Source: an uncultured Nitrososphaera sp. | GTDB taxonomy: Archaea > Thermoproteota > Nitrososphaeria > Nitrososphaerales > Nitrososphaeraceae | Direction of reading: 5' to 3' | Length of the DNA: 5,626 nt | Assembly: GCF_946478925.1 (NCBI RefSeq) | Contig: NZ_CAMLDP010000098.1 | Coordinates: 1-5,626 of the forward strand | In this document: positions 2,520 to 5,626 of the stretch, one piece after another | How positions within the stretch are numbered: the first letter of the stretch is position 1 | Layout: the number at the start of each line of letters is the position of its first letter | The notes under the pieces: generated by a model | Database searches by the model: none | Seen by the model: only the letters and a program-made list of their open reading frames with translations | What the model was told of the DNA's origin: nothing | Made by a program: the position numbers and the translations under genes

Positions 2520-3534
2520 GCAGTTTTGCTGACCTTGCTGCTATCTGGTCGGCCATCTTTGACAGAGATGCCGTGCCTCCAAGGTCGTAGGTCACGTACT
2601 TGTTCTCGTTGATGACATCCTCAGTGGCCTTGAATATCGCCTTGCAGATTTCCCGCTCGCCGAGGTAGTCTGCCATCCACGCGCCCGACAATACCGTTGC
2701 TACGGGGTTGACCTTGTCCTTGCCTGCGTATTTTGGCGCAGAGCCGTGCGCCGGCTCGAACATGGCATAGTCGTCGCCATAGTTGCCAGAATACACGTTG
2801 CCGATGGAGCCGACGTTTCCCGACGCGCATTCGGATATCACGTCCATGAACAGATTGGTGCTGACGAGCACGTTCTTGTTAAAGCGCTCAGGGTTCTTTA
2901 CCAGCTGCTGCGTCATGTTGTCGATATAGTATTCCTCGTACTCTATCCCCTTGAAGTTCTTGCTTGCGTTTTCAATCGACGACCAGAATATGCCGTCAGT
3001 CTCCTTCAGGATGTTGCGCTTTGTTATTGCGACTACTTTTTTCCAGCCATAATCCTTGGCAACCTCAAACGCCTTTCTTGCGATGCGGTCGCAGCCCTTC
3101 CTCGTCGTCTTGCGGATTGCGATTGCCGAGTCGTCGCTCGTCTTGAACTCGATTCCCGCGTACAGACCTTCAGTCGCTTCGCGGACGCAGATAAAGTCAA
3201 GCTGCTTTTCGGCGTTTGCGTACGTCTTTATCGGGCGCAGGTTGCCATAAAGCTGGAACTTTTGCCTGATGCTGACTGCCACGCTCCTTGGGGCGTTTGG
3301 CACGGGGACCGTTGTGGTCGGGCCCTTGAAGCAGGCGTCCGAGTCCTCCAATAGCTTCCAGACCTCCGGCGAGATGTACGAGCTGCCGCCGTTCTTCTCC
3401 CACCACTCGGAGCCGGCATCGCACTGGACCAGCTCCATCTTTGTGTTGCACGCCTGCAGGACCTTTATCATCGCGTTTACGAGCTCCGGGCCTGTCCCGT
3501 CACCTCTGATTATAGCGGCGGTCTTTTTAGCCAA
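2509..3534 (-). CDS. Isocitrate/isopropylmalate dehydrogenase family; most like NADP-dependent isocitrate dehydrogenase
   Basis: Beta-decarboxylating dehydrogenase, 341 residues, cytosolic. Motifs: GDGTGPE (11-17); substrate loop RSVAVSIRQ (83-91) with Ser84 and Arg90, resembling the isocitrate enzymes (E. coli Icd Ser113/Arg119) rather than the Glu/Leu loop of isopropylmalate dehydrogenase; LYGNLRP (95-101); [13 protein letters not shown] (117-129) with Arg118 and Tyr125; Lys172 in ITKRN; metal-site Asp231 in NLFMDVISE. In the nucleotide site, [15 protein letters not shown] (263-277) aligns Lys268-Tyr269 with E. coli Icd Lys344-Tyr345, the NADP discriminators. In an ammonia oxidiser it would supply 2-oxoglutarate for glutamate synthesis; this is inference. 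Oddities: the second metal-site Asp is Glu235, and Asn115 of E. coli is Ala86. The start is TTG. A homoisocitrate or other malate-type substrate is possible. Confidence 0.88.
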
Positions 3535-3545
3535 ATTGAATCAAA

Positions 3546-3557
3546 GCGGGAGTCCGC
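3546..3557. repeat. Short GC-rich inverted repeat between TATA box and start of the dehydrogenase gene
   Basis: GCGG-GAGT-CCGC forms a perfect 4-bp stem with a 4-nt loop, followed on the minus strand by TTTGATT. It sits between the predicted TATA box (3565-3572) and transcription start (about 3542). It could be a weak terminator for the upstream minus-strand gene or an operator of the dehydrogenase promoter. The stem is short and chance is possible. Confidence 0.3.
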
Positions 3558-3564
3558 ACTTTCC

Positions 3565-3572
3565 TATTTAAT
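3565..3572 (-). promoter_or_regulatory. TATA box of the dehydrogenase gene
   Basis: The minus strand reads ATTAAATA here, close to the archaeal TATA consensus. Its centre is about 34 nt upstream of the TTG start, so initiation about 26 nt downstream (near 3542) would leave a leader of only about 8 nt. This agrees with the absence of an SD. Confidence 0.55.
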
Positions 3573-3581
3573 CCTACTTGC

Positions 3582-4145
3582 CTACTTGTGTGTGAGCTCC
3601 ATCCTTATCACCATCTCCTTGGTGAAGGGCGGGACGCTCTTTACGTCGGGGACCTTGGTAAACTCGTTCTTTTCAGAAAAGTACGAGTACTGTATGTTAT
3701 AGTCGCTCAGGGTCAATACTTGAGGCACATTGGTGCCAGTCGAGTTGTTGACGACTGTTATCGTCTTGTTGTCGTACTCGTAGACGCGCATAAAGTCGAC
3801 CATCGAAAGTTTCACTGGCCTGATGTACTCTATGTGTATGTCGTTTCCTACCTTGTCGGTGCGGATTGGGCGTACGCATTCCTTACCGTCCTTGGGCTGG
3901 TGGCCGAGGTTGTCAGGCAGCTGCATGGGATGGCCGTCCACTATTACCTCGACTCTGGGGAAAAGCTGGAACGTCTCGACGTTCACGTTTTTCAGGCACA
4001 CGTCTATGGGGCTTGGAGGGGGCGAGAGCCACACGAGCAAGAGCGAGCCAAGCGTAGCCGCGCCCATGATTATCGGGATGATGAGCATCTCCTTTTTGCC
4101 AAGCCTCTTTCGCGGCTTGTCCTCCTTTATCTTGCGCTTTGGCAT
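3582..4145 (-). CDS. Membrane-anchored hypothetical protein with one N-terminal transmembrane segment
   Basis: Not assignable to a named family; 187 residues. Residues 1-19 are strongly basic (MPKRKIKEDKPRKRLGKKE). Residues 20-40 are a hydrophobic helix (MLIIPIIMGAATLGSLLLVWL), followed by SPPPSP. By the positive-inside rule the rest, residues 46-187, should face outward. The soluble part is rich in beta-prone sequence, with PRVEVIVDG (63-71), a Leu-Pro..Asn-Leu-Gly stretch (76-81), Cys50 and Cys90, ECVRPIR (89-95) and NDIHIEYIRP (101-110). From memory, this order resembles a group of thaumarchaeal extracytoplasmic proteins with 'IDG..Q.IP.NIG ... C.RPIHTHD..G.IHIE ... F.LGDFF'; here the HTHD histidines are replaced (RTDK). 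It has its own divergent promoter shared back-to-back with the phosphoesterase gene. The start is ATG; function unknown. Confidence 0.82.
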   Translation of the reverse strand: MPKRKIKEDKPRKRLGKKEMLIIPIIMGAATLGSLLLVWLSPPPSPIDVCLKNVNVETFQLFPRVEVIVDGHPMQLPDNLGHQPKDGKECVRPIRTDKVGNDIHIEYIRPVKLSMVDFMRVYEYDNKTITVVNNSTGTNVPQVLTLSDYNIQYSYFSEKNEFTKVPDVKSVPPFTKEMVIRMELTHK

Positions 4146-4224: not shown

Positions 4225-4245
4225 CGCGGGATGCAAAATATGCAG

Positions 4246-4995
4246 ATGCGTCTTGTACAGCTTTCAGACATCCACGTAGGCAGCCTCTTTTCGCAGCAGG
4301 TGTTTGACACCGTAATCGACGAAGTGAACAAGCTCAAGCCAGACGCAATTATAATCACAGGCGACCTCACAGACGAGGGCATACTGCCGCAGTTTGAAAA
4401 GGCGCGCAGCGAAATAAAGAGGTTTGAGTGCCCAAACATCATAGTAATTGCGGGCAACCACGACTACAGGCACACCGGCTACTTGCTGTTCAAAAAGTTC
4501 TTTCCGACAAAGCATGTCTACGAGTTTGGCGACGTCGTCATCCTGACGCTTGGCACCGCAAGGCCAGACAGAGACGAGGGCGAGGTCGGCTACCGGCAGA
4601 ACCTGTGGATGGAAAAGACGCTTGCAAAATACGCGGACAAGGTCAAGATAGTCGCGATGCACCACCACCTGGTGGGAATACCGGACACGGGTACCGACAA
4701 GATACTCATACTTGACGCCGGCGACACTCTCCGTACGTGCCTCCAGTCAAAGGTGAACCTCGTCCTGTGCGGGCACAAGCACAGGCCCTGGGTGTGGAAG
4801 CTGGGGTCGCTTGAGATAGGCTACGCCGGCACTACCTCGTCAAGCAGGTTCAGAGGGTTCTTTGAAAACTCGTACAACATCATCGAGGTGGAGGACCACA
4901 AGGTGCGCGTCGACATCAAGATAGTGGGCAAAAAGCGCTTTCCCCTCTCAGACCTCGTGGAGATGTACAAGCCGTTCCTTGAAGAAAAGCCATGA
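4246..4995 (+). CDS. Calcineurin-like metallophosphoesterase (Icc/CpdA-type)
   Basis: Binuclear-metal phosphoesterase, 249 residues from the ATG at 4246. All signature blocks are present: SDIH (Asp8, His10); GDLTDEG (Asp40); GNHDYRHTG (Asn71, His72); AMHHHLVG (His139-His141); and GHKHRP (His177, His179). These are the residues known to bind two divalent metals and the phosphate in this family. Layout resembles cAMP phosphodiesterase CpdA/Icc and related cytosolic enzymes, but the substrate cannot be read from sequence; cyclic nucleotides, phospholipid or nucleotide esters are all possible. No signal peptide or membrane segment is seen. In-frame ATGs at 4231 and 4240 would add five or two residues (MQNMQ), but MRLVQLSDIHVG is the usual family N-terminus and the TATA spacing supports 4246. 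It is divergent from the membrane-protein gene with mirrored promoters, which suggests co-expression. The stop overlaps the region just before the sRNA promoter. Confidence 0.93.
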   Translation: MRLVQLSDIHVGSLFSQQVFDTVIDEVNKLKPDAIIITGDLTDEGILPQFEKARSEIKRFECPNIIVIAGNHDYRHTGYLLFKKFFPTKHVYEFGDVVILTLGTARPDRDEGEVGYRQNLWMEKTLAKYADKVKIVAMHHHLVGIPDTGTDKILILDAGDTLRTCLQSKVNLVLCGHKHRPWVWKLGSLEIGYAGTTSSSRFRGFFENSYNIIEVEDHKVRVDIKIVGKKRFPLSDLVEMYKPFLEEKP

Positions 4996-5005
4996 TTATT
5001 AATAT
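4996..5005 (+). promoter_or_regulatory. TATA-like element upstream of the box C/D sRNA
   Basis: TTATTAATAT directly follows the phosphoesterase stop and is centred about 26 nt before 5026-5027, where the sRNA terminal stem begins. The spacing matches archaeal core promoters and suggests the sRNA has its own promoter. Confidence 0.45.
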
Positions 5006-5025: not shown

Positions 5026-5091
5026 TGGCAGCTGTGAAGATTCAGAGTTAATCCTGACCTGATGAAGAGAAGGCATTTGACTGAGCTGCCA
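5026..5091 (+). ncRNA. Box C/D guide sRNA (2'-O-methylation guide), predicted
   Basis: About 66 nt with the full archaeal order of elements. The terminal stem is TGGCAGC (5026-5032) paired with GCTGCCA (5085-5091), 7 bp and perfect. Box C is GTGAAGA (5034-5040), one mismatch from RUGAUGA. The first guide is 5041-5053. Box D' is CTGA (5054-5057). Box C' is TGATGA (5060-5065), perfect. The second guide is 5066-5080. Box D is CTGA (5081-5084), abutting the stem. Such RNAs bind L7Ae, Nop5 and fibrillarin and methylate the target base paired with the fifth nucleotide upstream of D or D'. Weak points: guide lengths of 13 and 15 nt are slightly above the usual 12, the D'-C' spacer is only 2 nt, and box C has A for the fifth U. 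The TATA-like element at the right distance and the recognisable rRNA target support it. Confidence 0.72.
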
Positions 5092-5154
5092 CCGCTATAT
5101 CATAAGGCAAAGCCAAAATAACCACAGGCCTTACAAAAGATGTACAGCTGGGTT

Positions 5155-5172
5155 GCAAGCCTTGCTCTTTTT
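5155..5172 (+). terminator. Possible hairpin/T-rich terminator
   Basis: GCAAGCCTTGC (5155-5165) can pair 4 bp around a 3-nt loop and is followed by TCTTTTT (5166-5172). It could end plus-strand transcripts from the phosphoesterase or sRNA before amoC. The stem is short; in archaea the T-run alone may suffice. Confidence 0.3.
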
Positions 5173-5209
5173 GGCGATTTTCAGATGGGGAGCAAAGCGA
5201 TTAGCGTCA

Positions 5210-5220
5210 ATGATAATCAT
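5210..5220. repeat. Perfect short palindrome upstream of amoC
   Basis: ATGAT-A-ATCAT is a perfect 5-bp palindrome around one central base, about 125 bp before the predicted amoC TATA box. It has the shape of a dimeric regulator site, but there is no second copy in the window to support this. Confidence 0.25.
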
Positions 5221-5235
5221 GCGTGCTTAGACTTT

Positions 5236-5290
5236 GGTATAGATTATAATTATATCTTTTTAACTTTTAAATTAAATAATTATTATTTCA
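5236..5290. other. AT-rich tract upstream of amoC
   Basis: About 55 bp are nearly all A/T, including the perfect palindrome TATAATTATA (5245-5254) and TTTTAAATTAAATAATTA (about 5265-5282), in a window that is otherwise GC-balanced. Several TATA-like octamers lie within, so a distal amoC promoter is possible, as is a binding site for chromatin proteins. No gene is seen here. Confidence 0.5.
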
Positions 5291-5296
5291 TAGGTC

Positions 5297-5312
5297 GTAA
5301 CGAGCAGGTTAC
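5297..5312. repeat. Small inverted repeat upstream of the amoC promoter
   Basis: GTAAC (5297-5301) and GTTAC (5308-5312) are perfect reverse complements across a 6-nt spacer, about 34 bp before the amoC TATA box. The position suits an activator or repressor site, but the arms are short. Confidence 0.25.
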
Positions 5313-5345
5313 TCTATAATCTGTTGTCAATTTTTGAAATGCAGA

Positions 5346-5354
5346 TTAATATAG
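5346..5354 (+). promoter_or_regulatory. Predicted amoC TATA box
   Basis: TTAATATAG is centred about 27 nt before the amoC ATG (5377), placing initiation at about 5375-5377, so the transcript would be leaderless or carry 1-2 nt. The competing view is that an upstream promoter is used: AGGT (5368-5371), 5 nt before the ATG, could then serve as a weak SD. Confidence 0.55.
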
Positions 5355-5376
5355 TCGATTATTCACTAGGTAATTC

Positions 5377-5626
5377 ATGGCGCAGATGCCAGCACTGATC
5401 CCGAAGGAAGTCGAGATCCAAAGACTGAAGAAGATCTACATCATGGTGATCATGCTCGGTTCCATCGCAGCCTCCGTCGAAGTAGACAACTTCGTCGATG
5501 GCTCGCTGCACCAGACTGCAATCAGAGACTCGGCCTTTACACCGGCCCACTGGTGGCTGTACAGCCACTTCGTGGCTCTCCCGGTCGGCTGGGGTATGGT
5601 TGCAATCTACGACAGAAGAGTCCCGA
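5377..5626 (+). CDS. amoC: Archaeal ammonia monooxygenase subunit C, 3'-truncated by window edge
   Basis: Membrane subunit of the copper enzyme that oxidises ammonia to hydroxylamine, the first energy step of ammonia-oxidising archaea. The 83 visible codons start MAQMPALIPKEVEIQRLKKI, the usual thaumarchaeal AmoC N-terminus, and run into a hydrophobic helix (about 20-34) and WWLYSHFVALPVGWG (59-73). Asp41, His45 and His58 (D-x3-H-x12-H) have exactly the spacing of the metal ligands Asp156/His160/His173 of methanotroph PmoC, so the CuC site is intact. About 190 residues are usual, so over half is missing here. No other amo gene is seen on the upstream side. All eight Ile codons are ATC, whereas neighbours often use ATA; this fits strong codon selection on a very highly expressed gene. 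The ATG start is supported by homology and the TATA spacing. Confidence 0.96.
   Translation, partial: MAQMPALIPKEVEIQRLKKIYIMVIMLGSIAASVEVDNFVDGSLHQTAIRDSAFTPAHWWLYSHFVALPVGWGMVAIYDRRVP

Follow-up and report, generated by a model that had tools for sequence, protein, structure and literature searches.

A putative box C/D double-guide sRNA, conserved across many relatives of Nitrososphaera, is predicted to target two nearby sites in 23S rRNA

The 66 nt at positions 5026–5091 on the + strand of a 5,626-nt stretch of DNA from an uncultured Nitrososphaera sp. (hereafter, the window, meaning the whole stretch analyzed) almost certainly form a gene for an archaeal box C/D double-guide sRNA, which would direct methylation at the equivalents of Escherichia coli A1912 and A1938 in 23S rRNA. 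The original prediction, which had read this segment as a box C/D guide sRNA, is supported by the conservation of the element, by two adjacent targets in 23S rRNA and by a conserved AT-rich, promoter-like element. This kind of RNA is already known; we found no listing of this particular RNA, and the breadth of its conservation is the notable point.

Results

Anatomy of the Element

As predicted, the element lies between a calcineurin-like phosphoesterase gene (4231–4995) and amoC, which starts at 5377 and encodes a partial AmoC scoring 21.8 bits, under the Pfam cut-off of 26.7. Along the sRNA, the order is stem, a single T, box C, a 13-nt guide, box D', CCTG, box C', a 12-nt guide, box D, and stem. 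The features are as follows.

5026–5091, + strand: putative box C/D guide sRNA gene, 66 nt, whose homologues share boxes, guides, and stem
4996–5005, + strand: putative TATA-like promoter element TTATTAATAT, about 26 bp upstream of 5026
5026–5032, + strand: terminal stem, 5' arm TGGCAGC (from sequence and covariation)
5034–5040, + strand: box C, GTGAAGA (from sequence and alignment)
5041–5053, + strand: D' guide, 13 nt, with pairing stretch UCAGAGUUA at 5042–5050
5054–5057, + strand: box D', CTGA (CUGA in the RNA; from sequence)
5062–5068, + strand: box C', ATGAAGA (AUGAAGA), overlapping the string TGATGA at 5060–5065
5069–5080, + strand: D guide, 12 nt, with pairing stretch AAGGCAUUUG at 5070–5079
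5081–5084, + strand: box D, CTGA (CUGA), directly abutting the stem
5085–5091, + strand: terminal stem, 3' arm GCTGCCA (GCUGCCA; from sequence and covariation)

Boxes C, D', C', and D do occur in the order claimed for them within a perfect 7-bp terminal stem, box D runs straight into the 3' arm of that stem as had been noted, and the TATA-like element is where it was said to be. Boxes D and D' are exact CUGA motifs, and C and C' both read RUGAAGA, one base off the box C consensus RUGAUGA (PMC7994747). Alignment A1 consists of the window and 13 other rows, and because 8 of these 13 have RTGAAGA after a variable linker of 3–4 nt, we placed C' at 5062–5068, which gives a D spacer of 12 nt, despite the presence of the TGATGA string. 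A coding gene was rejected, no ORF of at least 60 aa overlapping 5026–5091, and a tRNA search of the window found none.

A covariance search of the segment had been proposed with the original prediction. Two C/D families from Rfam, sR14 (RF01145) and SNORD11B (RF01192), match at the same place, with scores of 20.5 and 24.8 bits that fall short of their gathering scores (38 and 50 bits, respectively), on which grounds we rejected membership in either. The C/D box layout is common to both families and to the window RNA; the sR14 match rests on the boxes, its guide letters being different when compared by eye. In 20 further loci (17 distant ones together with L106, L111, and L123), no Rfam C/D family scored over threshold.

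Conservation and Reach of the RNA

Using an 86-nt region in blastn, we could recognize the RNA beside the phosphoesterase gene in 13 of 80 loci, which are the best 80 of 118 obtained with the phosphoesterase query. In alignment A1, 39 positions are invariant, most of them in the stem, boxes, and guides, while the D'–C' linker is variable both in length and in sequence and the flanks are dissimilar. The spacer leading toward amoC (5092–5376) gives only weak blastn matches in relatives, with a best E of 0.007. As the original prediction required, relatives keep the boxes and stem, and the guides too, whereas the spacer beside them has diverged. The closest phosphoesterase relative (L001) has no copy of the RNA at its phosphoesterase locus; a copy is found elsewhere in the same genome, upstream of amoC (L106).

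A model built from the 14 rows of A1 (R1) was run on 26 genomes chosen among these 80 loci, 13 of which had supplied its rows. It returned a single strong match (E of 3.3e-11 or better) in 25 of the 26, the next-best match in any of them having an E of 0.05. Among the 13 genomes outside the building set, 12 were matched, the miss being G012. In samples drawn for G001, a relative, R1 matched 175 of 398 genomes of the phylum at E ≤ 0.01. A broader model, R2, built from 74 rows (70 distinct), matched 350 of 400 sampled class genomes and 235 of 398 sampled phylum genomes at E ≤ 1e-4, leaving 50 and 163 without a match, respectively. Setting aside the genomes that had contributed rows to R2 (by our count, 52 in the class sample and 51 in the phylum sample) leaves matches in 298 of 348 class genomes and 184 of 347 phylum genomes. 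Reverse gyrase was found above cut-off in 16 of 24 genomes, comprising 16 of 20 distant ones and none of the four others (G001, G023, G029, and G414). Because of its presence in those 16 distant genomes, the RNA family would reach genomes of hyperthermophile type, and some RNA-bearing relatives are apparently heat-loving, as judged from this one gene.

Across the 74 rows, the box C motif RTGANGA is present near the 5' end in 58 and an exact CTGA at box D in 63. A strict CTGA is absent from box D' in 25 rows, some of which have long D'–C' linkers. The guide cores TCAGAGTTA and AAGGCATT[TA] are present in 64 and 65 rows, respectively, and occur together in 56; by eye, 3 of the 20 distant rows (L157, L159, and L160) keep only the D guide.

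As for the terminal stem, all seven pairs show two-sided changes among the 70 distinct sequences. These amount to 41 cells, against a mean of 11.6 after shuffling, in an alignment (A2) that was fitted to the model and is for this reason biased toward the stem structure. Of 463 stem cells, 87.0% are paired, and slid stem controls were lower on all five measures. Pairing fails most visibly at the outermost pair (30 of 70 rows) and at the fifth (25 of 63 rows). Taken as covariation, these changes support the predicted terminal stem.

Conservation extends upstream of the RNA. Counted from the start of the model, positions −27 to −22 have an A/T content of 96–100% in 54 of the 74 rows and 65–95% in the remaining 20, which are distant stretches. 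This conserved AT-rich element fits a TATA box belonging to the sRNA itself. In having such an element at its own start, the window RNA differs from the archaeal double-guide sRNAs reviewed in PMC7994747, where a TATA-like motif is reported for just 20% of the C/D genes of six model archaea.

Predicted Targets in 23S rRNA

We searched for targets in the rRNA of relatives rather than in that of the window's own genome, with E. coli numbering taken from L154 and the target stretch aligned ungapped by eye. The D' guide stretch UCAGAGUUA pairs over 9 bp with UAACUCUGA in the helix-69 loop of 23S rRNA (E. coli 1911–1919), which puts its N+5 base (5049) opposite A1912; in the window's D' duplex, the third guide position away from box D' is mismatched. 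The D guide stretch AAGGCAUUUG pairs over 10 bp with CAAAUGCCUU (E. coli 1935–1944), a strand of the helix 70/71 region, with its N+5 base (5076) opposite A1938. The two sites are 26 nt apart. The modification predicted as most likely is thus 2'-O-methylation at the equivalents of A1912, in helix 69, and A1938.

In two 23S loci of relatives (L081 and L082), the best ungapped matches of both guides lie side by side, although in L082, the D guide matches another site equally well, one located beyond the 23S gene and off the N+5 base. The same target is seen in L083. On one 23S rRNA (L082), both guides form at least 9 bp of contiguous Watson–Crick pairing that covers the N+5 base, at sites 26 nt apart; when letter-shuffled guides were held to the same requirement, a joint match within 100 nt was obtained in 5 of 200,000 trials. 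In the one 16S rRNA searched (L086), there was no guide match of at least 8 bp covering N+5. The target stretch is unbroken in five of six 23S loci (L081, L082, L083, L151, and L153), and in the sixth, L152, an insertion separates the sites. The L152 locus, from a genome that also holds L022 (G020), carries a group I intron in its 23S gene at 3511–3785 (Rfam RF00028, 53.5 bits, gathering score 50); with this intron between them, the two targets adjoin only after splicing.

The register of the D guide is nearly constant, N+5 falling on A1938 in 70 of the 74 rows, with no call in the other four. The register of the D' guide differs by lineage, with A1912 in 38 rows and A1913 in 11.

With its box order and stem, its covariation, and rRNA guides paired at N+5, the element appears to have what identifies an archaeal box C/D guide sRNA. 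From this anatomy, the conservation, and the complementarity, together with the fibrillarin and Nop domains present in all eight relatives searched, we infer how the RNA would be expressed, assembled into an RNP, and used for methylation and chaperoning. A TATA promoter of its own probably drives transcription of the sRNA. Its terminal stem and boxes C and D would form a kink-turn, C' and D' would form an internal loop, and L7Ae, Nop5, and fibrillarin would bind to both. Pairing would then be established by the D' guide at the helix-69 loop and by the D guide at the helix 70/71 strand, 26 nt downstream. Fibrillarin would 2'-O-methylate the base opposite guide nucleotide five, as counted from each box, and pairing may also assist folding of the subunit-interface region.

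A different balance between these two activities can be imagined, in which the C/D sRNA is chiefly a folding chaperone that holds the helix 69–71 strand with both guides, methylation being secondary or lost at D'. Such a role has been proposed for some C/D sRNAs (PMC4644070), and in several relatives, the D' box degenerates and the D'–C' linker lengthens, while the core of the D' guide stays mostly intact. However, the N+5 geometry needed for methylation is kept at the D site in nearly every row, and the D' box of the window is a perfect CUGA. We consider a mainly chaperoning RNA unlikely and prefer to read the element as a methylation guide with two targets.

Gene Neighborhood and the Question of amoC

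The original prediction had drawn attention to the position of the RNA just upstream of a key metabolic gene. Four window neighbors were looked for around the RNA (amoC, the phosphoesterase gene, the gene at 3582–4145, and the isocitrate/isopropylmalate dehydrogenase gene), and at least one was seen in 22 of the 74 rows, 20 distant rows being too short to show neighbors. Of the 53 loci with flanks, nine have amoC downstream of the RNA (L093–L096, L098–L100, L106, and L123). It was not found in 43 of the 44 others, each with at least 350 nt downstream and flanks of about 1.5 kb or less; the remaining one, L097, ends 13 nt downstream of the RNA and is uninformative on amoC.

These counts bear on whether the RNA could instead act on amoC, as its leader or as a regulatory element, for example a cis-regulatory RNA or an sRNA that controls ammonia monooxygenase in trans. 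The spacing has some appeal, since amoC lies 192–344 nt downstream on the same strand in all nine other loci, even in L106, where the phosphoesterase gene is located elsewhere. However, a cis-regulatory amoC RNA would be expected next to amoC wherever it occurs, which is not the case for this element in the flanks examined, and the conserved letters are those of the boxes and the 23S guides, while the spacer toward amoC is only weakly matched in relatives. Moreover, most of the distant RNA-bearing genomes have reverse gyrase, which suggests thermophiles. Because amoC follows in so few loci, a role in regulating it is unsupported, as is the functional link implied by the position. These counts and the weak spacer matches led us to discard control of amoC as the RNA's chief function, and we regard any reading of this sort as very improbable. 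We take amoC to be a lineage-specific neighbor of what we read as a guide sRNA gene.

Two other features of the window can be mentioned here. At 5243–5286, about 90–135 bp before the amoC start, there is an imperfect AT-rich inverted repeat with 21-nt arms that are 76% complementary, which could belong to the amoC promoter region. At 1289–2005, there is an rRNA adenine dimethylase-type gene (PF00398), a second rRNA modification gene in the window, with genes for L21e, an Rpb4-like protein, and DUF655 upstream of it.

Chance and Folding Tests

The four-box pattern, a lenient one that was composed after the site had been seen, matched none of 2,000 dinucleotide shuffles of the window. Within the window, it matches at this site alone, from three overlapping start offsets. 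Minimum free energy folding is unremarkable (z of −1.63), 13 of 200 shuffles folding equally well. A chance arrangement of boxes or a C/D sRNA pseudogene, which would agree with the imperfect C and C' and with a total folding energy inside the shuffle range, is scarcely conceivable given that no shuffle reproduces the box pattern and that the element is conserved and its stem covaries.

Discussion

The closest known counterparts of the window RNA are the archaeal double-guide sRNAs reviewed in PMC7994747, which have the same length, box order, terminal stem, and 12–13-nt spacers, and whose two guides likewise aim at rRNA sites separated by under 100 nt. That review lists seven species with RNA-seq data, among which there is no ammonia-oxidizing archaeon, and it states that no methylation position is common to all seven. 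Among the literature matches listed, largely the main texts of open papers, we found no description of C/D sRNAs of ammonia-oxidizing archaea; one paper on these organisms (PMC4836417) has a snoRNA program among its references.

The predicted targets lie in a region where methylation has been described before. In hyperthermophiles, predicted methylation is dense in helix 69 around A1912 (PMC4644070), which is the same rRNA site and involves the same kind of guide as the window RNA. The sections of that study covered here name no single guide that pairs with both the helix-69 loop and the region of A1938, and its supplementary lists may hold an orthologue from one of the species surveyed. In Haloferax volcanii, three ribose methyls have been reported in 23S rRNA, the one in helix 69 being at 1909 (PMC2584109) and not at the sites predicted for the window RNA.

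The comparison can be carried to yeast, where two separate snoRNAs are at work and the window has one double guide. Yeast positions 2256 and 2280/2281 presumably correspond to E. coli A1913 and 1937/1938, respectively, at an offset of 343. On this presumed correspondence, the yeast methylations Am2256, made by snR63, and Am2280/Am2281, made by snR13 (PMC5199042), fall in the same rRNA region as the targets of the window RNA. The helix-69 base in the window, A1912, is one off that of yeast, and the comparison with snR63 and snR13 is one of position.

What these observations may mean is an RNA of considerable age, a possibility to which we give an even chance. It would be a double guide of ancient origin, nearly universal in the phylum, that predates the split between ammonia oxidizers and hyperthermophiles and persisted as the majority of archaeal guides were replaced. 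A single RNA would do the work of yeast snR63 and snR13, serving both the helix-69 loop and the region around A1938. The D' register would have moved by one base, from A1912 to A1913, in some lineages, and elsewhere, D' methylation may be lost, with pairing kept for folding.

A single double guide that occurs in as many as 350 of the 400 class genomes sampled, and that can be followed into genomes with reverse gyrase, would be exceptionally stable for a guide RNA. For annotation, it supplies a model of an RNA gene that scores under threshold with every Rfam family, and it makes directly testable why the subunit-interface region carries ribose methyls in both archaea and yeast.
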